Below are positions 163 to 11,931 of a DNA stretch of 12,326 nt, piece after piece. The position numbers and the translations under genes are program-made. Where the stretch lies: contig JAHEOA010000202.1 in the NCBI GenBank assembly GCA_018609825.1, forward strand, positions 1 through 12,326, read 5' to 3'. The notes under the pieces are model-generated. The model was not told the origin of the DNA, did no database searches, and saw only the letters and a program-made list of their open reading frames with translations. Numbering within the stretch: the stretch's first letter is position 1; each line of letters opens with the position of its first letter. The stretch comes from Candidatus Bipolaricaulota bacterium. GTDB taxonomy: Bacteria > Bipolaricaulota > Bipolaricaulia > RBG-16-55-9.

Positions 163-246
163 GATGGCCGCGCTGCCGGACAACGCCGGGGATGCCATGA
201 ACCGATCCGCGGCGTTCGACATACACCTGAGCGAGGAGGCCAGACG

Positions 247-849
247 GTGGACCGGGACGCCGAACTGATTGCAGGGGTCGATGCAGGGGACGAGAACGCG
301 TTCGCCGAGCTCTACGAGCGCTATCACCGGCGTCTGTTTTCGTTCTTTGTGCGCAAGACCCGAGATCGAGACGCCGCGGAGGAGCTGATCCAAGACACCA
401 TGACCCTCGTCTGGGAAAAGGCCGGCCAGTTCAACGGCACCTCGCACGTCTCCACGTGGATCTTCGGCATCGGCTATCGCAAGATGCTCGAATGGAACCG
501 TGCCAAGAACCGCCAACAGGCGGTCTTTGAGTCCGGCGACCGTGGGGACGATGAGCCCGTGCAGGAGACGACCAGCCGGCCGGAGCACGGCGTCGAGCAC
601 GCCGTGGGGCACGACACGCTCGTGCGCCATGTCCAGAGCGCGCTCGGCGATCTGTCCGAGGAGCACCGCGACGTCGTGAGGATGACGTTTCAAGAGGGGA
701 TGAGCTACCCCGAGATCGCCGAGGCATTGGGCATCCAGCCCGGCACCGTCAAGAGCCGTATGTACTACGCCAAACGACAGCTCAAGGACGGTCTCACCCG
801 ACGGGGACTGAAAGGAGATGAGCTATGGCAGATCGCGAAGGGCCTTTGA
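247..849 (+). CDS. ECF-family RNA polymerase sigma factor
   Basis: A 200-aa sigma-70 family factor of ECF size that directs RNA polymerase to a small regulon. Sigma region 2 spans about residues 18-86 (FAELYERYHRRLFSFF, then AAEELIQDTMTLVWEKA and a STWIFGIGYRKM recognition segment). Region 4 spans about 131-182, with the helix-turn-helix YPEIAEALGIQPGTVKSRMY. An acidic linker of about 45 residues joins them. The frame is open further upstream to 97, but I choose GTG at 247: it has GAGGAGG just upstream, and the extra 50 residues are Arg/Gly-rich and unlike a sigma factor. The 3' end overlaps the anti-sigma gene by 25 bases, so the two are probably translationally coupled and made in fixed ratio. 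The regulon is unknown; the operon suggests envelope functions. Confidence 0.93.
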   Translation: MDRDAELIAGVDAGDENAFAELYERYHRRLFSFFVRKTRDRDAAEELIQDTMTLVWEKAGQFNGTSHVSTWIFGIGYRKMLEWNRAKNRQQAVFESGDRGDDEPVQETTSRPEHGVEHAVGHDTLVRHVQSALGDLSEEHRDVVRMTFQEGMSYPEIAEALGIQPGTVKSRMYYAKRQLKDGLTRRGLKGDELWQIAKGL

Positions 850-2087
850 CGCCTGAGGAAGGCCGCGATCGCCACGAGGCGATCCAGGAGCTTCTGCCGT
901 GGTATCTCAACGACACCCTGGAGGCCGACGAACACGAGCGTGTTGAGCGCCACCTCCAGAGCTGCGCGGAGTGCCGCGACGAGCTCGAGGACCTGAAAGG
1001 GCTCCAGTTTGCCGCGCTTCTGCAACCGGCGTCGTCCCGGGCGTCGCTCGACGAGCAGGCGCCGGAGCGCGTCCCCAATCGCCCATCGAGCGAGCCACGG
1101 CCGTCAGGCACATCCCGACGCCCCGCAAGTTCGCCCTCGGAGCCAGCCCGCCCCGGCTTCTTGGAGTGGCTCAGTGGCCTCATGACGCCGCGTCGACTGG
1201 TCACCGTGCCGGCGTTTGCGGTGCTCTTCATCGCGATCGGCGTCGCCCTTGGCACGCAGCTCGGGCTCGACCAGACGATCATCGGCGACTTCACCGACTC
1301 GGAGGAGCGGGCCTATCAGACCACCGACCGCTACTTCGCCTTCGCCCGCGAGATCCTCTTGGATGGCGAATTCACCATGCGGATCGGCAACCAGGTGAAG
1401 GAGACCGAGTCGTTCACGCTGGAGCGCTCCGCCGAGACCGAGAATCAGCTGCTGTTGACCTCCAACATCCAGGCGGAGGAGCTGTCGGCGCGCCAGCGCA
1501 TGCAGCTGACGCCGGACTTCCGCCCGATCTCCTACAACCTCCAGGGGCCGCTGGTCTATCAGGGCAGCCGCGCGGAGGTGGAGTTCCGGGACAGCCAAGC
1601 CATCATGCGGGTCTGCTGTCGCCCGACGCCGGAGGGCCAGCAGCTCAATCGGCGCATCGTGGAGATCGGCGACGCGACGCCCGTGCTCTACGACTTCAGC
1701 GTCATGAGCCACTTCGCGCTCATGCACCAGCTCATGTCCAATCAACTGTCGGCGGACGGGGTTGAGCCGTCCGAACTGAAACTGACCGCGCTGACGCCCC
1801 AGGCCCTGCGCATGGAAACGATGACCATTCAGGGCGTGAAGCCCGTGACGCTCGTGAGCGAGGATCAGCGGGTTCCGACCACGCGCTATCACCTGACCAG
1901 CGGCAACGACGACCGCAACCTGTCGATCTATCTCTACGAGATGACGGACGAGAACATTCTGCTGGCCGCCTACATGCCGACGCAGCCGCGACTGGCCTCG
2001 TCGTCGGCGATCGTCATCTATCGCAGCGACCTCTACCCCGACGGGCTTGAGCTTCCCGCCGCCCGATCCTCAAGGAGTTCCCCATGA
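825..2087 (+). CDS. Membrane anti-sigma factor: zinc-finger domain plus large extracytoplasmic sensor domain
   Basis: A 420-aa single-pass protein predicted to sequester the upstream sigma factor at the membrane. The cytoplasmic part carries a ZAS zinc-finger motif HX3CX2C (H43, C47, C50) with an additional upstream His (H17). A Pro/Ser-rich linker (about 67-110) follows, then a transmembrane helix (about 125-146, VTVPAFAVLFIAIGVALGTQ). Residues 147-420 lie outside the membrane. I do not recognise them firmly: the pattern of beta strands after YFAFAREILLDGEFTMRI is reminiscent of LolA/RseB- or DUF3108-like folds, but this is a guess. Vicinal cysteines (264-265) in that domain are unusual and could be redox- or metal-responsive. 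The start has AAAGGAG seven bases upstream, inside the sigma gene. Anti-sigma factors are often only 100-250 aa, so this one is large. Confidence 0.88.
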   Translation: MADREGPLTPEEGRDRHEAIQELLPWYLNDTLEADEHERVERHLQSCAECRDELEDLKGLQFAALLQPASSRASLDEQAPERVPNRPSSEPRPSGTSRRPASSPSEPARPGFLEWLSGLMTPRRLVTVPAFAVLFIAIGVALGTQLGLDQTIIGDFTDSEERAYQTTDRYFAFAREILLDGEFTMRIGNQVKETESFTLERSAETENQLLLTSNIQAEELSARQRMQLTPDFRPISYNLQGPLVYQGSRAEVEFRDSQAIMRVCCRPTPEGQQLNRRIVEIGDATPVLYDFSVMSHFALMHQLMSNQLSADGVEPSELKLTALTPQALRMETMTIQGVKPVTLVSEDQRVPTTRYHLTSGNDDRNLSIYLYEMTDENILLAAYMPTQPRLASSSAIVIYRSDLYPDGLELPAARSSRSSP

Positions 2088-3217
2088 CGCTTCCCATGGC
2101 CTCGCGTCAACTGATGACCGTTCTGCTCAGCCTGGCGGTCGTTGGGGTGGCCGCCGGTTGCGAGCTGGAGGAGCTCGCGCTCGACCGGCTCAACGTCAGC
2201 GCGTCCGCCAACGTCGACCTGTCCGACCCCGACGCGAGCGAGACGGTGACCTCCGACATTCCGTTCTCCGGCCAGCGGATCGTCCTCGACAACCCGCTCG
2301 GCCGGATCGAGATCGAGACCGTGGAGGACCCGGGCTACGTCGCCGTCCGGCCCACGATCCACCTCGAGGCCACCAAGAACGTCAAGGGCATGAAGCTGGA
2401 CGACCTTCGGATCGCCACCGACGCCACCTCGGACGAGATTCGGGTCCGAGTGACCACGACGATCGAGTCGGCCCGCAACGCCACGGACGACCGATCGCGG
2501 GAAGCCGGCGAGCCGGTCGGCTGGGTGGATGTCAAGGTTCGGCTCCCGGAGGAAGCGGTCGTGACGCTGCGCCAGAACCTGGGGTCGATCACCGTGAACG
2601 GCTTCCGCGGCGAACTGAGCGCCACGACCGACCTCGGCCAGATCGAGGTGCGCAACGCCGACACGACGGCCATAAGCCTGCGGACCGAGCTCGGCTCGCT
2701 GTCGGTGGCCGACTCGACGGTCGACGGCGATCTGAGGCTGGAAACGTCGGCGGGCGAGGCCCAACTGCTCAACGTCCGCTTCGGCCAGGCCAAGATCGAC
2801 ACGCAGGCCGGCGAGGTCGACGTCAAGGACGCCCGCGGGCGGCGCCTGGCGATAGCCACGCAAGTCGGCGAGATCGACGTGGCCAACGCAGACGTCGAGC
2901 AGCTGGATCTGTCCTCGCAGATGGGCGAGATCAGCCTGCAAGCCACGCGCGTGACTCGGGGCAGCGTCCGGACGCAATGGGGCGAGATCGACGTGCGGCT
3001 GCCCTCGGGCGAGGTCCCGCGCATTCGGGCCTCCACTCAGGCCGGCGGTGTCGACGTCTATCGGCTGCCGACGTCCCTGCGCGCGGCCCTGCAACAGCGC
3101 GGCTCCTGGCTCGGCGAGGGCATCGAGTTCGATCCCGCCAACGCCCGGGGCACGCTCGAGCTGACGGCGCAACTGGGCGACATTCAGATCGTCTTTCCGA
3201 AGACGACGTCGCCGTAA
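2084..3217 (+). CDS. Predicted lipoprotein with DUF4097-like beta-solenoid repeats
   Basis: A 377-aa exported protein of the DUF4097/putative-adhesin type. The N-terminus has a hydrophobic segment (about 10-25) ending in a lipobox-like AAGC with Cys26 as probable lipid attachment site. Residues 66-160 form a beta-rich lead-in. From about 167 to 326 a G-[hydrophobic] turn recurs at residues 168, 186, 205, 225, 244, 263, 282, 301 and 322, a period near 19, as in a right-handed beta-solenoid. The ATG overlaps the anti-sigma stop (ATGA), with AAGGAG six bases upstream; an in-frame ATG at 2096 is an alternative. DUF4097 proteins often neighbour ECF sigma/anti-sigma genes, but their biochemical role is unknown. 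A structural or ligand-sensing partner of the anti-sigma outer domain is a reasonable inference. Confidence 0.85.
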   Translation: MTLPMASRQLMTVLLSLAVVGVAAGCELEELALDRLNVSASANVDLSDPDASETVTSDIPFSGQRIVLDNPLGRIEIETVEDPGYVAVRPTIHLEATKNVKGMKLDDLRIATDATSDEIRVRVTTTIESARNATDDRSREAGEPVGWVDVKVRLPEEAVVTLRQNLGSITVNGFRGELSATTDLGQIEVRNADTTAISLRTELGSLSVADSTVDGDLRLETSAGEAQLLNVRFGQAKIDTQAGEVDVKDARGRRLAIATQVGEIDVANADVEQLDLSSQMGEISLQATRVTRGSVRTQWGEIDVRLPSGEVPRIRASTQAGGVDVYRLPTSLRAALQQRGSWLGEGIEFDPANARGTLELTAQLGDIQIVFPKTTSP

Positions 3218-3300
3218 CGACTCGAGACTGACCGCGCCAGTCGATCCATGATCGGAGCGGAGCGACGATGACGACTCCCTGTAAGGAGGGCAAGGTCCCC

Positions 3301-4107
3301 ATGAACCGACAACATATCCGTACCATGACGCTTATCACGGCCTTCGTGGTCGCGTTCGCCGCGACGCCCACGCTCGCCCGAGCGGACGCCCAACAGGCCC
3401 CGGACGTCCGCCTCGTGGCTCAGCAGGCCCAAGGGGGCATCCAGACGGAGAGTTTCCAGGTGGACATCCCGGAGATCGACACGAACGGCCGGACGTTTGT
3501 CGGCGGCGGCGGCCCGAGCTTCTGGGCCGCGTTCTTCCAGCTGGACGCTCTGGAATCCCAGTTGACCGACATCGCCGCGTTCGACGGCGATCTCCAGGTC
3601 GGCGACCGGGCGGTCTATCTGCTCAAGGGCGGCGGCGGCTTCGGCGGTCGCCGGGTCCGCACGGGCGGGGCCGGCGCAGGCGGCCGTTGGACGTCCCCGG
3701 CCGGCGAGGCCTCCGCCTTCGATCAGGCCCGGCTCGACTTCGGCATGGGCGGATTCCAGATCGAGCGCCTCGTCGCCGAGGACGATGGCTTCGGCCTCAG
3801 CCTGGGCGCGCTGCTCGGGCGCGGCAACTGGTCGCTGACGCTCTCGCGCACGGCCAGCGGCTCCTTCGACGAGGTCGTCACCGAACCGTCCACGCTGTCG
3901 ATGAGCCGCTCGTTCTGGCTGGCCATGCCGTTCGTGAGCGTGGAGTACAAGCTCGTCGAGTTTGCCGGGATCAAGCTGGCCGGAGGCATGGGCGCGACCC
4001 TCAGCTTCGGCGATTGGCAGACCAGCGGCGGCACGGTCGCCCCCGGCGGTCCGCTGAAGAACGCGCTCTTCCCCGTGATCCAGGTCATGTTCGTCTTCGG
4101 CGGCTGA
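3301..4107 (+). CDS. Exported Gly-rich protein of unknown function, last gene of the sigma operon
   Basis: A 268-aa protein I cannot assign to a characterised family. A signal peptide is clear: short basic n-region, hydrophobic LITAFVVAFAATPTLA, probable cleavage after ARADA (about residue 30). The mature part has a short GGGG-PSFWAAFF segment (68-79), a Gly-rich stretch (about 110-128, GGGGFGG then GGAGAGG), and a C-terminal half with alternating hydrophobic strands ending in VIQVMFVFGG, compatible with a beta-structured envelope protein. The start is set at the ATG with AAGGAGG (3283-3289) 11 bases upstream and a normal signal-peptide n-region. An in-frame ATG at 3268 would add 11 residues. 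It lies 83 bases after the solenoid gene on the same strand, so probably the same transcript. Confidence 0.78.
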   Translation: MNRQHIRTMTLITAFVVAFAATPTLARADAQQAPDVRLVAQQAQGGIQTESFQVDIPEIDTNGRTFVGGGGPSFWAAFFQLDALESQLTDIAAFDGDLQVGDRAVYLLKGGGGFGGRRVRTGGAGAGGRWTSPAGEASAFDQARLDFGMGGFQIERLVAEDDGFGLSLGALLGRGNWSLTLSRTASGSFDEVVTEPSTLSMSRSFWLAMPFVSVEYKLVEFAGIKLAGGMGATLSFGDWQTSGGTVAPGGPLKNALFPVIQVMFVFGG

Positions 4108-4691: not shown

Positions 4692-4865
4692 TTAGGGAAG
4701 GATCGACCTCACCACGCGCTGGACGCTGCGCATCCAGCGCCCCAATGCGCCGTCACGACGCTCACCCTGCACCAGCTTGCTCAGCCGATGCGTCCGGGCG
4801 TCCCGTTGCAAGTCCGTCATCTTGGCGCGAGCCACCATGCGATCAGCCGAATAATAGCCAAACAT
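4692..4865 (-). CDS. Small basic protein, 57 aa, unknown function
   Basis: A 57-residue, Arg-rich protein starting MFGYYSADRMVARAKMTDLQ. An upstream ATG would add 11 residues, but AAAGGAGA lies seven bases before the ATG at 4865, which fixes the shorter start. The central part (RDARTHRLSKLVQGERRDG) is highly charged. The C-terminal LGRWMRSVQRVVRSILP is a cationic amphipathic helix that could bind a membrane surface or nucleic acid. No transmembrane segment or known motif is present. The gene sits between two hairpins, so it may be its own transcript. A small inverted repeat (TCACC-TG-GGTGA, 4895-4906) lies just upstream. Function unknown. Confidence 0.68.
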   Translation of the reverse strand: MFGYYSADRMVARAKMTDLQRDARTHRLSKLVQGERRDGALGRWMRSVQRVVRSILP

Positions 4866-4926
4866 TGCCGAATCTCCTTTGCGTGCGTGGGGTGTCACCT
4901 GGGTGAATGACGAAACGCGCCGGGCG

Positions 4927-4947
4927 GTTCACGGAATGATCGGATGA
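4927..4947. repeat. 21-bp direct repeat, copy 1
   Basis: Contains ACGGAATGATCGGATGA preceded by GTTC. It matches the copy at 5045-5065 in 20 of 21 positions (C versus G at the fourth base). It lies about 60 bases upstream of the 57-aa gene. Chance matches of this length are not expected in 12 kb. Confidence 0.8.
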
Positions 4948-6218: not shown

Positions 6219-6629
6219 TCAACCCATCTCGTCGTGGTTGTCGTGGCGCTCCTCGTCGGCGTCCGCGCCGTCGGACGTCTGCCCCTGCATCTTCTCGATG
6301 GTCTCGGGCAGCATCTCGAGGATCTTGGTCAGGCGCGACTCCTTGGTCTGGATGCCGACCACGGAGACCTCGCCGTCCTTGACGATCACCAGCGCGGCCG
6401 GGTCGAGCTTGACGGCGCCGCCGCCCCCGCCGCCGCTGCCCTTGCCGCCGGCCTTCTCGCCGCCTTCGCCCTCGCCTTCGCCGCCCCCGCCGCCGTAGCC
6501 GATGCCGAGCTTACAGACGGGGATGACCGTGTTGCCTTGGATCTCCATCGGCTCCCCGAAGATCGTCTCGCTCCGAGCGAACTCCTTGAGGTCCTGCGCC
6601 ACCTGCTGCAACAGATCCTGGACGACCAT
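6219..6629 (-). CDS. gerW: GerW/YtfJ-family protein with Gly/Glu-rich insert
   Basis: A 136-aa member of the family named for Bacillus YtfJ (GerW), a spore protein needed for normal germination; homologues also occur in bacteria that do not sporulate, where the role is unknown. Visible hallmarks are an N-terminal helix, FGEPMEIQGNTVIPVCKLGIGYG (residues 24-46), then, after a low-complexity Gly/Glu/Lys insert (about 46-71), the AVKLDPAALVIVKDGEVSVVGI strand pair and a short helix KILEMLPETIEKM. An acidic tail ends the protein. The start is ATG at 6629, overlapping the upstream stop as TGATG, with GGAGG ten bases before it. Together with the DUF2953 neighbour this matches the Bacillus ytfI-ytfJ arrangement. 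No other sporulation gene is in the window. Confidence 0.87.
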   Translation of the reverse strand: MVVQDLLQQVAQDLKEFARSETIFGEPMEIQGNTVIPVCKLGIGYGGGGGEGEGEGGEKAGGKGSGGGGGGAVKLDPAALVIVKDGEVSVVGIQTKESRLTKILEMLPETIEKMQGQTSDGADADEERHDNHDEMG

Positions 6630-7282
6630 CAGATACCGACCTCCGTTTCCCTCGCGTTCCGCGAGGACTCGTGATGATGACGTCGGCGGCGCTGCGCGCG
6701 CCACGTCCGCCATATTCTCCGCTTGGGCAGATGCCAGAGAACCACCAGCGGCATCCCGATCAACACGCCCAATCTTACCGAGACGCGACCCCGAAGGCGG
6801 ATCGCGTGGACCGCCCCGTCGAAATCCGGCGCAACCGTCAACTCGATCGGCCGACTCCACGGCTGCAGCGCGCCGTACACCGCGTAGATCGCCCCGATCA
6901 GCATCCCCGTATCCGCGGGATCGTCGGTCCCGACGGTCCCCCATATGCGCAACTCATCGATCCGCAGCCGACGCAACAGATAGACCAGGCCGCGCTTGAG
7001 CCCCTGCAGCCCATCAGGGAGCAGCTTGAGCCAATCCATGGCGCCGCCGCGCTTCGTCTTGGCCTTCTGCTTGCTCGGCCCGTCGCCAGCGTCCTCGGAC
7101 TTTCTCCGGGATTGCCTGGCGTCGGCTGGCTTGCCCGACGGCACCCGGAACGTGAAGCCGAGATACGCCACACGCACCTCGCGCCGTTCGGGCCCGAGCT
7201 CGCCGGTGACCGTGATCCACCGCGAGAGCGCAAAGGCCAGCCCGACCATCAGTAATCCGACGACAATGCCCAGTGTTATCAT
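6629..7282 (-). CDS. DUF2953-family membrane protein, partner of GerW
   Basis: A 217-aa protein of the YtfI/DUF2953 type. An N-terminal transmembrane helix (about 3-20) is followed by beta strands (TVTGELGPERREVRVAYLGFTFRV), a charged linker (51-80), and the family-like core LLRRLRIDELRIWGTVGTDDPADTGMLIGAIYAVYG (about 102-137). Next comes DUF2953-like IELTVAPDFDG and a second hydrophobic segment (about 169-184). The C-terminus is very basic and His/Arg-rich. Its function is unknown; in Bacillus the homologue is next to gerW. The stop overlaps the gerW start by one base, so the two are co-translated. The ribosome-binding site is imperfect: one AGGAG is only two bases from the ATG and a GGAG is 12 away. 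It diverges from ctaA. Confidence 0.82.
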   Translation of the reverse strand: MITLGIVVGLLMVGLAFALSRWITVTGELGPERREVRVAYLGFTFRVPSGKPADARQSRRKSEDAGDGPSKQKAKTKRGGAMDWLKLLPDGLQGLKRGLVYLLRRLRIDELRIWGTVGTDDPADTGMLIGAIYAVYGALQPWSRPIELTVAPDFDGAVHAIRLRGRVSVRLGVLIGMPLVVLWHLPKRRIWRTWRAQRRRRHHHESSRNARETEVGI

Positions 7283-7320
7283 GGCTCCTGCACGCTCCGC
7301 ATCGCCATGGTCATACCCGA

Positions 7321-7351
7321 TTTATCGGATATGTGCCATGTCCGGGATCAA
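7321..7351 (-). promoter_or_regulatory. Weak candidate promoter for DUF2953-gerW
   Basis: On the minus strand TTGATC (7351-7346) and GATAAA (7326-7321) are 19 bases apart, longer than ideal. A CCGAT-TT-ATCGG inverted repeat overlaps the -10 side. It is the best candidate seen in the divergent gap, and is weak. Confidence 0.28.
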
Positions 7352-7377
7352 CCCCCGCTCGCATCCACATGAATCGG

Positions 7378-7405
7378 TGGACGCACGCCCGCTGATCCCT
7401 ATAAT
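7378..7405 (+). promoter_or_regulatory. ctaA promoter with consensus -10, predicted leaderless start
   Basis: TATAAT at 7400-7405 is a perfect -10, with TGGACG (7378-7383) as a -35 at 16 bases. The -10 ends nine bases before the ctaA ATG, so transcription should begin about at the start codon. The -10 is the centre of an inverted repeat ATCCC-TATAATT-GGGAT (7395-7411), a possible operator. Confidence 0.62.
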
Positions 7406-7414
7406 TGGGATGCC

Positions 7415-8368
7415 ATGGCCTCGCGCGGATTCGTCCGATACGCCTGGGGGACGCTCGCCTACACCGTCGGGGTGATCCTCTGGGGCGCGTTCGTGCGCGC
7501 CACGGGCTCCGGGGCGGGCTGCGCCAACAACTGGCCGCTGTGCAACGGCGAGGTCCTTCCGCGCCCCGAGCGGGTCGAGACGCTGATCGAGTTCGCCCAC
7601 CGGGCCAGCAGCGGCCTCGCGTTCCTGCTCGTCGTCGGCCTCGCCATCTGGGCTTTTCGCACGTTCGCACGCGGTCACCGGGTGCGCTGGACGTCGGGAT
7701 TGGCCGTCGTCTTCATGATCACCGAGTCGCTCGTCGGAGCGGGATTGGTGCTGCTGGAACTCGTTGCCGAGGACGCCTCCATCGCGAGGGCCTACTGGAT
7801 GGCCGGGCACCTGCTCAATACGTTCCTGCTTCTGGCCACGCTAACGCTGACCGCCTGGTGGAGCACCCACCACGCCCCCCTGAAGATCCGCCAAGCCGGC
7901 GGAGGGGCGCTCGGCATCGGCGTCGCGCTGTTCGGATTGGTGCTCGTGAGCGTCAGCGGCGCCGTGACGGCGTTGGGCGACACGCTCTATCGGCTCGGCG
8001 GGACCGAGCCGTCCGCCACAGCCGAACTGCTGATCGGCCTGCGCTCGATCCATCCGATCCTGTCCATCGCCACCAGTCTGGTCGTGCTGTTGATCGTCCT
8101 GACGACCGCCACGGCCCGTCCGTCCGCTCAGACCACGGGCCTCAGCCGCTGGCTGGCGGGCGGCCTCATCGGCCAGTTGGGGGTCGGCGCGCTCAACGTG
8201 GCGCTGAGCGCCCCCGTCTGGATGCAGATCGTCCATCTGCTGGCCGCCGATCTCATCTGGATGGCCTTGATCGTCTTCGCGGCTACTGTCATGGCCGACG
8301 CCCCTGCCCCCAACGCCGCCAAAGCCCAACAGCCCAAAACCGCGCACACTACACCTAATCGACGCTAA
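7415..8368 (+). CDS. ctaA: Heme A synthase (COX15/CtaA family)
   Basis: A 317-aa, eight-helix membrane enzyme that oxidises the C8 methyl of heme O to the formyl group of heme A, the cofactor of aa3-type cytochrome oxidases. The N-terminal half has GAFVRATGSGAGC and NNWPLCNG with the Cys pair C36 and C43 (as in Bacillus CtaA), then E59 and H62 (EFAHR). Other conserved histidines are H132 (AGHLLNTFLLL), H213 (SIHPILS) and H274 (IVHLLAADLIWM). So the full heme-ligand set and catalytic Glu are present in an ordinary-length protein. There is no good Shine-Dalgarno, and the promoter suggests a leaderless mRNA. No ctaB or oxidase gene is adjacent here. The C-terminal tail follows a 10-bp tandem duplication at the stop. 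Confidence 0.95.
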   Translation: MASRGFVRYAWGTLAYTVGVILWGAFVRATGSGAGCANNWPLCNGEVLPRPERVETLIEFAHRASSGLAFLLVVGLAIWAFRTFARGHRVRWTSGLAVVFMITESLVGAGLVLLELVAEDASIARAYWMAGHLLNTFLLLATLTLTAWWSTHHAPLKIRQAGGGALGIGVALFGLVLVSVSGAVTALGDTLYRLGGTEPSATAELLIGLRSIHPILSIATSLVVLLIVLTTATARPSAQTTGLSRWLAGGLIGQLGVGALNVALSAPVWMQIVHLLAADLIWMALIVFAATVMADAPAPNAAKAQQPKTAHTTPNRR

Positions 8369-8374
8369 TCGACG
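8355..8374. repeat. 10-bp tandem duplication spanning the ctaA stop codon
   Basis: CTAATCGACG occurs twice in a row. The second copy supplies the TAA stop because ten bases shift the frame. With one copy the reading frame would continue ten more codons, to a TGA at 8397-8399 in present coordinates. Confidence 0.85.
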
Positions 8375-8419
8375 GTCGAGCCCATTTCCCGAATTCTGAG
8401 GCCGTTTGTCATGCTCGTA

Positions 8420-8449
8420 TTGACAGTCACGGCCATATCCGTCTATCGT
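8420..8449 (+). promoter_or_regulatory. Promoter for the PKD-protein gene
   Basis: Consensus TTGACA (8420-8425), an 18-base spacer and TATCGT (8444-8449) place a start near 8456, about 30 bases before the ATG and just upstream of its Shine-Dalgarno. Confidence 0.55.
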
Positions 8450-8485
8450 CCATCCGGAGGGCAACCACGTAAGGAGGTCCAGTCG

Positions 8486-10486
8486 ATGAGCCGTGCCGCC
8501 CGCGCGGTGGCTGCGGTGATCTTGATGGGCGGGCTGTTCGCCCTCGCCGTCGCCGCGCCGGGGCAGAGCCCACTGGGCGAGGCCGCCAAGGAGGAGCTGA
8601 GCGAGCAGGCCGGGATCCCGCTCGACATGCTGGCGACCATGGTCGTCACCGACGGAGCGGACCAGTTCATCCTGGCCTTCGTCGCCGCCGCCCCGTCCGT
8701 GCTGGAGAGCAACCTGAGCGAGGAGCTCAAGGACGGCGTTCGGCCGTTCGTCGGCACGCCGGCGCTTTTGGCGCTCGTCTATCCCACGCAGGCGTCCCGC
8801 TTCGATCCGCGCCGGATCTCGTTCGCCCAGGGCGACGCGCGCTTCCTCATCGACGCCAGCGACATCACGCCGCTGACGGAGAACTTCCGCGCGGGCCAGC
8901 TCTCCGCCGAAACGCTCAGCGCCGGGGTGATCGAGCTGCCCGAGCAACTGGACGAGTCGCAGGCCTTCGAGATCGTCTTCCGGGGCGCGTTTACGGCGTC
9001 GATCCAGCCGACCTTCGGCAACAACGCCCATCGATCCTCGAGCCAAATGACCGCCGTCGTCCGCCAAGACGGGCGAGCCTGGACGCTGGCGCCGCTGCAG
9101 ACCTCGGCGAGCCTGGGGGAGGTCTACCAATACGAGAACTTCAGCAGCCAGAGCCCGCTCGTCCGCGAGAACGCCAGCATCCTCTTGCTCCACCAGAACG
9201 CGGACGGGACGCTGTCGCTGGTGACCATCCATCAAGCGCGCCGGCCGGCCGAGGTCAAGCTGACGCTCTGGGGGCTGCCGCCGGACGCGACGTTCGCCAT
9301 CCAGGACGACCCCGACGACGCCTATTGGCTGGACCCGCCGTCGGCCAAGGCCACCTGGCGCTGGTCCAGCGGCAAGACCGACGGCGGCGCGATCAGCGGC
9401 CTGACCGACGGCACCTCGCTGTCCGTGCGCCCGGCGTTCAACGACAGCATTTCCACATGGTACCTGGTCCGCGGCAGCGTGAGCGATCCCGAATACGTGG
9501 AACTCCCCTCGACGTCGTCGCCGCTGCAGTTGGTGATCTCGCGGGTGGGTTCAAGCTCCGCGGAATCCGAGGAGGAAGACGAGAAACCCGAAGGAGCCCC
9601 GAATGAGCTGAGCGCGGAGATGGCGATTCGTCCGTCGCAACCCGAAGTGGGGCAGACCGTCACGTTCGATGCCGGCGCGTCGACCGCCCCGTCGGCGGAG
9701 ATCGTCGAGTACGCTTGGGACTTCGACGCCGACGGTCGCTTGGACGAGCGAGGCGAGCGCGCCTCGGCCACGCACGCGTACCGCTCGGCCGGCACCTATC
9801 GCGTCAAGTTGCAAATCACCGACGATCAAGGCCGCACGGCGACGGCGACGCGCACGGTCGACGTCGGACGGGCGTCACGCCCCGCCAGCGTGGACCGGAT
9901 CATCGGCGCCTATCTGCCCGAATCGCAGGCGTTGCCCGGCAGTTCCTTTCACGTCCGGCTCAAGGTCCAAGCCCATCGGCGGACCGTCGGCCTCGGGGTG
10001 CGCGAGCGCCCGCCCGAGGGCTGGCAACTTACGCCCGTGCAGAACGCCGGCGCGGAGTTCAACCGCGAGCTGGGCGAGTGGCTGTTTACCGATCCGCTCC
10101 GTGCCAGCCAGACGCGGACGATCCTCTATCGGGTCGACGTCCCCGAGCGCGCGAAGCCGGGCACGTTCCGCTTTGCCGGCCAGGCGTTCAGCGGCGTTCC
10201 GGCCATGCAGACCGAGCTGGGCGGCGACGCCATCGCAGAGGTCGTGCACGCGTTGCCCATCCGCGTCGCCGTCTCGCGGCTCAACGACGACGGGGGCCTC
10301 GATCTCCGCCGCTCCAACCGGATCACGTTCGGCCAGATGCTGCAAGCGACGGTGCTCTGGAAGGAGCAAGCCCGGGTACCCGGCACGGACGGGCGCACGA
10401 TCGACCTGCCGACGATGGTGACGCTGGTGGCCTACTGGCGCACCCGAACACCCGTCGATCGCCCCTTGCCCGCCGACGATCGCTGA
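8486..10486 (+). CDS. Secreted PKD-domain protein with duplicated C-terminal dockerin-like motif
   Basis: A 666-aa exported protein. The ATG at 8486 has TAAGGAGG just upstream and gives a proper signal peptide (hydrophobic about 8-23); the 25 extra codons upstream lie over the promoter. Residues about 30-350 are an unrecognised beta-rich region, followed by an acidic linker (ESEEEDEKPEG). A PKD domain covers about 377-461, with the hallmark YAWDFDADG (409-417), a Y..AGTYRVKL strand and ITDDQGRTAT. Residues about 465-600 look like another Ig-like/NEW3-type beta domain. The last 60 residues repeat a motif: NRITFGQMLQATVLW (from 611) and IDLPTMVTLVAYW (about 638-650), resembling paired dockerin/EF-hand-like helices lacking clear calcium loops. 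There is no membrane anchor. Likely an extracellular binding or surface-assembly protein; the ligand is unknown. Confidence 0.83.
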   Translation: MSRAARAVAAVILMGGLFALAVAAPGQSPLGEAAKEELSEQAGIPLDMLATMVVTDGADQFILAFVAAAPSVLESNLSEELKDGVRPFVGTPALLALVYPTQASRFDPRRISFAQGDARFLIDASDITPLTENFRAGQLSAETLSAGVIELPEQLDESQAFEIVFRGAFTASIQPTFGNNAHRSSSQMTAVVRQDGRAWTLAPLQTSASLGEVYQYENFSSQSPLVRENASILLLHQNADGTLSLVTIHQARRPAEVKLTLWGLPPDATFAIQDDPDDAYWLDPPSAKATWRWSSGKTDGGAISGLTDGTSLSVRPAFNDSISTWYLVRGSVSDPEYVELPSTSSPLQLVISRVGSSSAESEEEDEKPEGAPNELSAEMAIRPSQPEVGQTVTFDAGASTAPSAEIVEYAWDFDADGRLDERGERASATHAYRSAGTYRVKLQITDDQGRTATATRTVDVGRASRPASVDRIIGAYLPESQALPGSSFHVRLKVQAHRRTVGLGVRERPPEGWQLTPVQNAGAEFNRELGEWLFTDPLRASQTRTILYRVDVPERAKPGTFRFAGQAFSGVPAMQTELGGDAIAEVVHALPIRVAVSRLNDDGGLDLRRSNRITFGQMLQATVLWKEQARVPGTDGRTIDLPTMVTLVAYWRTRTPVDRPLPADDR

Positions 10487-10506
10487 CTGTGTCCGCCAAC
10501 ACAGTC
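10485..10506 (+). terminator. Hairpin at the end of the PKD-protein gene
   Basis: GACTGTGT and ACACAGTC form a perfect 8-bp stem with a CCGCCA loop, beginning inside the TGA stop codon. No T-tract follows, so it may protect the mRNA 3' end or help a factor-dependent stop rather than act as a classic intrinsic terminator. Confidence 0.5.
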
Positions 10507-10574
10507 CATAGGCCCTTCGCTCCGTTACGCTATCCGTTAAGGGCAGCAACACGCTCGACACGGAGAGGTCCGTC

Positions 10575-10664
10575 ATGGCCGAGTCGGACGCCGCATCCGC
10601 ACTGTTCTTTGCCATCTTTATGATCGTCTTTTCCCGGTTCCTCAGTGCCATCTTGGGCAACTGA
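10575..10664 (+). CDS. Possible 29-aa membrane microprotein
   Basis: A short frame, ATG to TGA, in an otherwise empty gap. GGAGAGG (10562-10568) lies six bases before the ATG, an ideal ribosome-binding site. The product starts MAESDAAS and then has one hydrophobic helix, ALFFAIFMIVFSRFLSAIL, ending GN. That is the layout of known single-pass microproteins. No family is recognised. The good ribosome-binding site and the hydrophobic helix argue for translation, but a frame this short could be accidental. Confidence 0.5.
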   Translation: MAESDAASALFFAIFMIVFSRFLSAILGN

Positions 10665-10713
10665 GGTCCAACCGAGGCACGCCAGCGCCAGGGCGTCTCC
10701 CCGGTCGGCTGGC

Positions 10714-10743
10714 TTGACGCGGCAATTTGCGCCGCGCTAAGCT
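10714..10743 (+). promoter_or_regulatory. Promoter for the GNAT-like gene
   Basis: TTGACG (10714-10719), an 18-base spacer and TAAGCT (10738-10743) predict a start near 10750, about 45 bases before the ATG. The spacer holds an inverted repeat CGCGGC/GCCGCG (10718-10736), a possible operator. Confidence 0.42.
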
Positions 10744-10794
10744 CGTCCATCCGCCCGAACGCGACGACGGGCAAGGGACGTGCGTCGAACGGCC

Positions 10795-11931
10795 ATGAGC
10801 GTGGACATCCATCCGGTCACGACCCAGTCGGACCTAAGCCGCTTCGTTGACCTTCCCTGGCGGATCTATCGGGACGACCCCTGCTGGGTCGCCCCGTTGC
10901 GCTCCGACGAGGCCAAGAAGTTCGACCGCCAGCGCAACCCGTTCTTCGACCATGCCGACGCCGCGTTCCTCTTGGCGCTCGACGGCGATCGCCCCGTCGG
11001 GCGTATCTCGGCCCACATCGACCGCCTCTACAACCAGTTCCACGACACCCAGACGGGGTTCTTCGGCTTCTTCGAGACGGCCGAACGCCCCGACGTCGCC
11101 GATGCGCTGTTCGGGGCCGCCATGGAGTGGCTGCGCGAGCAGGGCATGACGCACGTCATGGGCCCATTCGACTACAACACCAACGGCGAAAGCGGGCTCC
11201 TCGTCGACGGCTTCGGCAGCCCCCCCGCTTTGATGATGCCGTACAATCCCCCCTACTATGCCGAGCTCATCGAGCGCAACGGCTTCGCCAAGGCCAAGGA
11301 TCTGGTCGCCTATCTGGTGCAACTGGACGGGGAGACGTTCCTGACCGAGATGGCCTCGCTCGTCCCGCGCCTGGAGAAGGTCAGCCAGCGGGCGCTGGAC
11401 GACGGCTACACCGCGCGCCCGATCAACCTAAAGGATTTTCATGGCGAAGTCGCCCGCCTGCGCGAGATCTACAACGAGGCCTGGGAGGCCAACTGGGGCT
11501 TCGTGCCGCTGACCGAGCGGGAGTTCGAGGAAATGGCCCGCGAGCTGAAGCGGGTCGTCAATCCCGACCTCGGCGTCCTGATCGAGTTCGGCGATGAGCC
11601 CGTCGCGTTCGGGATGGCCCTGCCCGACTTCAATCAGGCACGCCAGCCCGTCAACGGCCGACTGTTCCCATTCGGCTTGTTGAAACTGCTCTGGCACCTG
11701 CGCCGCATCGACGGCATGCGGATGATGACGCTCGGCATCAAGGCCCAGCACCGCGTCCGCGGCGTGGACGCGCTCTTGTATCTGCACATGATCCGCTCGG
11801 CCATGGCCAGTCCCTACAAGTGGTGCGAATGTTCCTGGATCCTGGAGGACAATTCCAAGATGCGCCAGACCATGGAGCGCATCACCGGCCACCTCTACAA
11901 GCGCTATCGCGTCTACGAGCGCCCGCTGTAA
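10795..11931 (+). CDS. GNAT-like acetyltransferase-superfamily protein, uncharacterised
   Basis: A 378-aa cytoplasmic protein of a widespread uncharacterised family usually annotated as N-acetyltransferase. The N-terminal half shows the family pattern: PWRIYRDDPCWVAPLR (21-36), NPFFDHADAAFLLALDGDRPVGRISAHID (48-76), GFFGFFE (88-94), then MGPFDYNTNGESGLLVDGF and MMPYNPPYY (122-155). The C-terminal half has a second GNAT-like unit (VLIEFGDEPVAFGMALPDFNQ, then SWILEDN near 347-353 and the closing YKRYRVYERPL). The substrate is unknown. The ATG at 10795 is preferred because its product begins like the family. An in-frame GTG at 10780 adds five residues, and the AAGGGA nearby is poorly spaced for either, so the start is uncertain. 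The S9 peptidase gene follows after 55 bases, possibly in one operon. Confidence 0.8.
   Translation: MSVDIHPVTTQSDLSRFVDLPWRIYRDDPCWVAPLRSDEAKKFDRQRNPFFDHADAAFLLALDGDRPVGRISAHIDRLYNQFHDTQTGFFGFFETAERPDVADALFGAAMEWLREQGMTHVMGPFDYNTNGESGLLVDGFGSPPALMMPYNPPYYAELIERNGFAKAKDLVAYLVQLDGETFLTEMASLVPRLEKVSQRALDDGYTARPINLKDFHGEVARLREIYNEAWEANWGFVPLTEREFEEMARELKRVVNPDLGVLIEFGDEPVAFGMALPDFNQARQPVNGRLFPFGLLKLLWHLRRIDGMRMMTLGIKAQHRVRGVDALLYLHMIRSAMASPYKWCECSWILEDNSKMRQTMERITGHLYKRYRVYERPL

Follow-up and report, generated by a model that had tools for sequence, protein, structure and literature searches.

Among the closest described systems, RpoE-RseA-RseB of E. coli and AlgU-MucA-MucB of P. aeruginosa pair an extracytoplasmic function (ECF) sigma factor that has envelope targets with an adjoining membrane anti-sigma factor, and MucB is described, in part of PMC7400510, as sensing lipids via a hydrophobic cavity. 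Class I (ZAS) anti-sigmas, whose groups keep conserved fused domains according to a portion of PMC7406223, combine an HX3CX2C motif, a transmembrane (TM) helix, and an adjoining cognate ECF sigma factor. In the PSP/Lia neighborhoods, a Toastrack protein adjoins a transcription regulator; this domain was defined in PMC11237479, which in the section relevant here reads it as intracellular and notes its operonic linkage to a sigma factor. Here, we describe a locus with likenesses to all of these, a four-gene cassette encoding an ECF sigma factor, a large membrane anti-sigma factor, a DUF4097/Toastrack lipoprotein, and a Gly-rich exported protein (g4), on a 12,326-nucleotide stretch from a Candidatus Bipolaricaulota bacterium (GCA_018609825.1, contig JAHEOA010000202.1; the whole stretch is called the window below). 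We read the cassette, at a probability of roughly 0.68, as an autoregulated ECF sigma/ZAS anti-sigma envelope-response unit encoded beside its own core targets. Our literature search, which mostly covered papers available without subscription, returned nothing linking Bipolaricaulota to an anti-sigma, Acetothermia to a sigma factor, Toastrack to an anti-sigma, or DUF4097 to an ECF sigma/anti-sigma pair.

Judged from its sequence features (i.e., sigma regions r2 and r4, the zinc motif, the overlap of the two genes, and a predicted promoter), the first gene pair is an ECF sigma factor with a class I ZAS anti-sigma. The sigma r2/r4, zf-HC2, and DUF4097 matches all lie over the Pfam cut-offs, with DUF4097 scoring 56.9 bits vs a curated cut-off of 22.9, and the PDB match of the sigma factor is SigL (1.1e-16). 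The zinc-motif residues H43, C47, and C50 show no variation across 28 of 28 aligned anti-sigmas, the most strongly hydrophobic stretch of this protein starts at residue 125, and the lipoprotein carries a lipobox-like VAAGC with the Cys at residue 26 (by eye only). The preliminary description had located these three genes and their 25-base and ATGA overlaps correctly, and had begun g4 too early, at 3268; we set its start at 3301, the second Met, because all 11 relatives begin there. For g4, neither a Pfam family above cut-off nor a credible PDB relative was found (best PDB E 0.77); it was also weighed as a candidate outer-membrane barrel, and its C-terminus is, by eye, Gly-Gly and not an aromatic residue.

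Compared with the RseA/MucA systems, the cassette differs in having a ZAS zinc motif, a large outer domain, a Toastrack lipoprotein, and g4, and in showing no relation to RseB by sequence. Its Toastrack protein looks like an exported lipoprotein and is encoded beside a ZAS anti-sigma, whereas the PSP/Lia Toastrack is intracellular according to the pertinent part of PMC11237479; the domain would lie outside the cytoplasm here, contrary to the usual reading, and none of the PspC, LiaI-LiaF, or PspA partners was found among the 12 window open reading frames (ORFs) scanned. Within Bipolaricaulota, two operons (L024, 3476-9046, and L029, 6694-12241) likewise hold an ECF sigma factor and a ZAS anti-sigma with a DUF4097-like gene downstream, but their 124-residue anti-sigma is without an outer domain, their DUF4097-like protein has no obvious signal peptide and looks cytosolic, and they include two bactofilin-like genes (by eye).

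The cassette is conserved. Scanning the anti-sigma alignment against a species-genome collection kept 80 of 83 loci, among which seven (L001-L007) match the anti-sigma over about its full length and 73 only within the first ~145 residues. By label, these seven are Bipolaricaulota, Acetothermia, or Fraserbacteria, with L007 from an uncultured bacterium; Candidatus Fraserbacteria and Candidatus Bipolaricaulia are the source names found among the protein relatives. The preliminary description had proposed looking for the ordered four-gene set in other genomes, and the sigma factor, DUF4097 lipoprotein, and g4 do accompany the full-length anti-sigma in all seven stretches, which argues against a chance neighborhood. 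The set thereby passes the check, named in that description, that the last two genes should not be missing from close relatives or displaced in them. L002, L003, L004, and L006 keep the gene order of the window; a family-5 solute-binding protein gene is inserted between lipoprotein and g4 in L001, L007 additionally has a binding-protein gene and another DUF4097 gene, and the lipoprotein-g4 pair is placed ahead of the sigma-anti-sigma pair in L005. In L003, g4 is partial and split over contigs G003:C78 and C50, so that both contigs are needed to make up the full cassette.

The genes also track each other across genomes. Of 100 Bipolaricaulota genomes, a g4 relative is present in 32 and an anti-sigma match in 57 (full-length in 7), and g4 matches at E<=1.7e-46 occur in exactly the seven genomes with a full-length anti-sigma, the next genome standing at 9.0e-37. 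Among the 11 g4 relatives in the protein database, 8 pair with an anti-sigma relative of equal longest contig, two of the unpaired ones sitting on contigs <1.9 kb and the third, without a partner, on a 37,748-base contig. Shared descent accounts for part of this co-occurrence. Outside cassettes, g4 had no sigma, ZAS, or DUF4097 match nearby in 20 of 20 stretches plus L156, a sample that represents 17 of the 25 genomes having g4 but no cassette (8 fall outside it) and in which many stretches stop at contig ends.

The first two genes of the cassette overlap in all eight loci (the window and L001-L007), by 25 bases in six, 22 in L003, and 31 in L004, when the start codon is taken as the one aligning with relatives. 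The ATGA overlap of anti-sigma and lipoprotein is confined to the window and L002 (2/8); by first-start positions the two genes are ~15 (L001), ~22 (L003), ~41 (L004), and ~6 bases (L006) apart, while in L007 the anti-sigma gene directly abuts a small-protein gene and in L005 the lipoprotein gene is located elsewhere.

A shared ECF-type promoter, TGAACC-N14/15-nYCAT-nY-Ac, is predicted upstream of the cassette in all eight loci. With a matrix built from 10 sites and tested by leaving one locus out at a time, the cassette site or sites ranked first in seven of eight loci; in the window the site at 197..228 came second with a score of 12.4, behind the copy at 4901..4932 and ahead of the next best on either strand (6.5). 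Across 46 loci (451,230 bases), 15 matrix hits scored >=17, i.e., the 10 training sites plus 5 held-out ones, vs a mean of 0.485 and a maximum of 4 hits for 200 shuffled-column matrices. The held-out sites precede the 57-residue ORF of the window (Table 1), g4 in L001, a small membrane protein gene in L006, a gene joining the anti-sigma's outer domain to PDZ (L154), and a tRNA_bind gene (L155).

Table 1 Predicted features in the window, numbered from its first nucleotide
Feature	Position	Strand	Details
Predicted cassette ECF promoter	197..228	+	-35 TGAACC, 14-base spacer, -10 GACATACAC; 18 bases before sigma start
ECF sigma factor	247..849	+	200 aa, GTG start; Sigma70_r2 7.2e-11, r4_2 6.1e-13
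Membrane anti-sigma factor	825..2087	+	420 aa; zf-HC2 4.1e-9
Anti-sigma, ZAS domain	~873-986
Anti-sigma, TM	~1197-1265
Anti-sigma, extracytoplasmic domain	~1290-2084
DUF4097/Toastrack lipoprotein, exported	2084..3217	+	377 aa; DUF4097 2.6e-15
g4, Gly-rich exported protein	3301..4107	+	268 aa; start set by relatives
57-aa ORF	4692..4865	-	ribosome-binding-like AAAGGAG; downstream of 4901..4932 promoter
Second promoter copy, better-scoring	4901..4932	-	score 25.8; outside matrix training set

Where the last two genes are separated from the sigma gene, i.e., g4 in L001 and lipoprotein-g4 in L005, each unit has its own promoter-like site, and for that reason the lipoprotein and g4 are best read as targets. 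Genome G006 adds a second Toastrack operon, in which such a site is followed by genes for a small membrane protein and a DUF4097 lipoprotein (L222). The preliminary description had instead counted both proteins as members of an envelope-sensing cassette. One could accordingly picture the lipoprotein, g4, or both as co-sensors docking at the outer domain and governing how stable the anti-sigma is, as RseB does for RseA; the gene order shared by the window with four relatives, the ATGA overlap in two loci, the compartment that lipoprotein and outer domain would share, and the proposal, within PMC11237479, of Toastrack as a surface for signaling complexes all speak for it. We nonetheless consider this unlikely given the separate L005 unit with its own site, the separate site that g4 has in L001 after the insertion of a binding-protein gene, and the second lipoprotein operon in G006, and a target role would still permit feedback.

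The unit is larger than its four genes, with promoter positions pointing to the lipoprotein, g4, and several other proteins as probable outputs. The small membrane protein (68-91 residues, an ERLAxRRDQA-like segment and then a hydrophobic stretch) is encoded between promoter and sigma gene in L001-L004, a likeness to the rseD-rpoE arrangement (known from annotation) in which a small gene stands ahead of sigma, and, in L007, after the anti-sigma and ahead of the lipoprotein (held-out E=2.2e-8); a hidden Markov model (HMM) of the small protein did not detect it in L005. The window's own 57-residue ORF was not significant against this HMM (E=1.4), had no Pfam match when scanned with one additional codon at its start, and shows no clear TM stretch, but its RRDGALGRWM resembles RRDRALMRWM of the small membrane protein, and it is possibly this organism's version of it. 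In genome G003, a 131-residue protein is a likely target (L215), and in G006 a cassette-type site lies upstream of a 941-residue exported protein with PD40 propeller repeats (L223, 4293-7115). The C-terminus of the 941-residue protein resembles a membrane barrel and ends in Phe (by eye).

Solute-binding proteins of the SBP_bac_5 family lie beside or inside three of the seven relatives' cassettes (L001, L006, and L007); in L006 the order is promoter-like site, small membrane protein, SBP_bac_5 (7343-9127, 1.9e-59), and sigma operon, and in genome G005 (L224) a site stands ahead of another SBP_bac_5 gene (4.6e-57). These placements would also suit a nutrient-responsive surface-signaling unit that serves peptide uptake and takes the ligand of the binding protein as its signal, yet that seems very improbable to us, because a phmmer search queried with two such proteins came up empty for the window and for the L002-L005 stretches, and because neither a FecR-like anti-sigma nor a TonB-dependent receptor of the FecIR type had a Pfam match among the four genes or the other 8 window ORFs.

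The outer domain of the anti-sigma sets the cassette apart from described class I ZAS anti-sigmas, being uncatalogued and occurring also alone, on PDZ proteins, and on hydrolase proteins. It had no family match in Pfam and no credible PDB relative (best E 1.1), and so, by these searches, is not the ordinary known domain that would have spoken against a distinct type of unit. DUF6134 was a candidate and was rejected, its weak hits (0.0025 in L153, 0.079 in 1 of 28 sequences) not being borne out by a seven-genome search (best E 0.216, under cut-off). The preliminary description had suggested that the roles of RseA and RseB might be merged in one polypeptide; hhalign of an outer-domain alignment (A3) to E. 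coli RseB gave a probability of 0.4% and Pfam scans gave no MucB_RseB match, so that such a fusion is unsupported by sequence, and the outer domain, as far as these comparisons reach, belongs to an uncatalogued family and not to RseB. The wider proposal of a distinct surface-signaling unit is supported for the conserved four-gene set (7/7), while its RseB component finds no support in sequence and a sensor role of the last two genes is less likely than one as outputs. A vicinal Cys pair (264-265) was discarded as a general sensor, since it is near-invariant in alignment A1 and absent from L005-L007 and the solo copies of A3.

Residues ~160-412 of the anti-sigma recur without ZAS in other Bipolaricaulota proteins, either solo with a hydrophobic N-terminus, with PDZ, or with a C-terminal alpha/beta-hydrolase. 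The hydrolase fusions, observed in L147 and L150 (by Pfam) and in L152 and L161 (by eye), may hint at a common ligand. In L154, L155, and L164, the gene next downstream of the outer-domain gene encodes an ABC ATPase; an FtsX/MacB_PCD permease comes after it in the latter two, and the L154 stretch stops within the ATPase; because of these neighbors, we place the family beside MacB/LolCDE-type transporters, for which the outer domain may serve as a periplasmic partner. Such transporters handle lipids, lipoproteins, or peptides in known cases. Two of the three transporter operons (in G004 and G006) have a promoter-like site upstream, 111 bases ahead of the outer-domain-PDZ gene in L154 and with a 108-residue tRNA_bind gene in between in L155. 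Also in G004, a site precedes a 280-residue outer-domain protein (L211) with a promoter score of only 17.1; this protein matches the A3 profile at E=1.1e-10, L211 not being among the A3 sequences.

From these pieces, we propose that, when uninduced, the ZAS domain would keep sigma at the membrane, as its family suggests, and that an envelope signal acting on the ~260-residue outer domain would release it; stepwise proteolysis in which an M50 site-2 protease acts last would be the simplest route, and conformational change another. Free sigma would then transcribe the TGAACC-type promoters, its own operon included, with Toastrack lipoproteins, g4, the small membrane protein, the oligopeptide-type binding protein, the propeller protein, and those outer-domain proteins whose genes neighbor MacB-type transporters as further outputs. 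The lipoprotein would be mainly an output, yet may also feed back on the anti-sigma. More speculatively, free outer-domain copies made from the same promoter could share a signal molecule with the anti-sigma and so damp the response. A self-limiting system of this kind, in which one domain is both the tethered sensor of the anti-sigma and the free or PDZ-linked MacB partner, senses the cargo of the targets themselves, and does the job of RseB without RseB, with Toastrack as scaffold, is a tentative idea that we regard as possible and on balance rather doubtful. Omp85 was found in seven of seven cassette genomes, which fits the simple diderm envelope that part of PMC6092417 considers as a possibility for a member of Acetothermia, where the monoderm/diderm question is called hard to settle. 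If correct, the envelope-response unit would provide a predicted pathway, comprising a sigma factor, a likely promoter, and likely targets, for an uncultured phylum whose envelope is atypical, and would bring Toastrack lipoproteins, g4, a solute-binding protein, and an uncatalogued sensor-domain family into one predicted circuit.

Several points weigh against the autoregulated unit. Raw pattern counts in the seven cassette genomes barely top the reversed control, with 10 matches vs 8 for TGAACCN{14,15}GTCAT (5 of the 10 being cassette sites) and 18 vs 12 for GAACCN{14,15}NYCATNYAC, and the promoter argument consequently rests on position. Eight of the 18 sites are at cassettes (counting the L005 lipoprotein-g4 unit), five elsewhere are <=45 bases from an ORF whose product has a membrane stretch or begins with a hydrophobic segment, and five are without a sensible target. 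Several of the sites used lie inside mechanical opposite-strand ORFs (352 residues in L211, 186 in L215, and 149 in L213), the matrix was made after the sites had been seen, and L154 and L155 were chosen for their outer-domain genes, which biases toward such neighbors. M50 proteases occur in all seven cassette genomes, which says little because they also occur in 14 of 14 controls. A looser pattern, TGAACC-N14-RYCAT-NN-AC, was set aside, since its 66 matches in 41 of 100 genomes (vs 7 reversed) were often near-identical and coding-like by eye. That a different ECF sigma factor reads the shared promoter, with the cassette sigma among its targets, strikes us as the least probable explanation of all, for although at least two cassette genomes (G006 and G007) have a second ZAS-type match elsewhere and other ECF pairs may therefore exist, autoregulation is the usual ECF pattern, and the GTCAT-NY-AC form, a tighter one picked after viewing the sites, makes up 8 of the 66 looser matches, 7 of which come from five of the seven cassette genomes and 1 from the remaining 93.

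One further promoter-like site, at ~4916 on the minus strand of L225 (G005:C3:200886), scores 28.2 and has no ORF of >=45 residues starting within 200 bases; perhaps it marks a small RNA or a very short gene, or has arisen by chance. The other window genes, at 6222-11928 and with no cassette link seen, encode Spore_YtfJ, DUF2953, COX15-CtaA, a PKD-domain protein, and a GNAT acetyltransferase.

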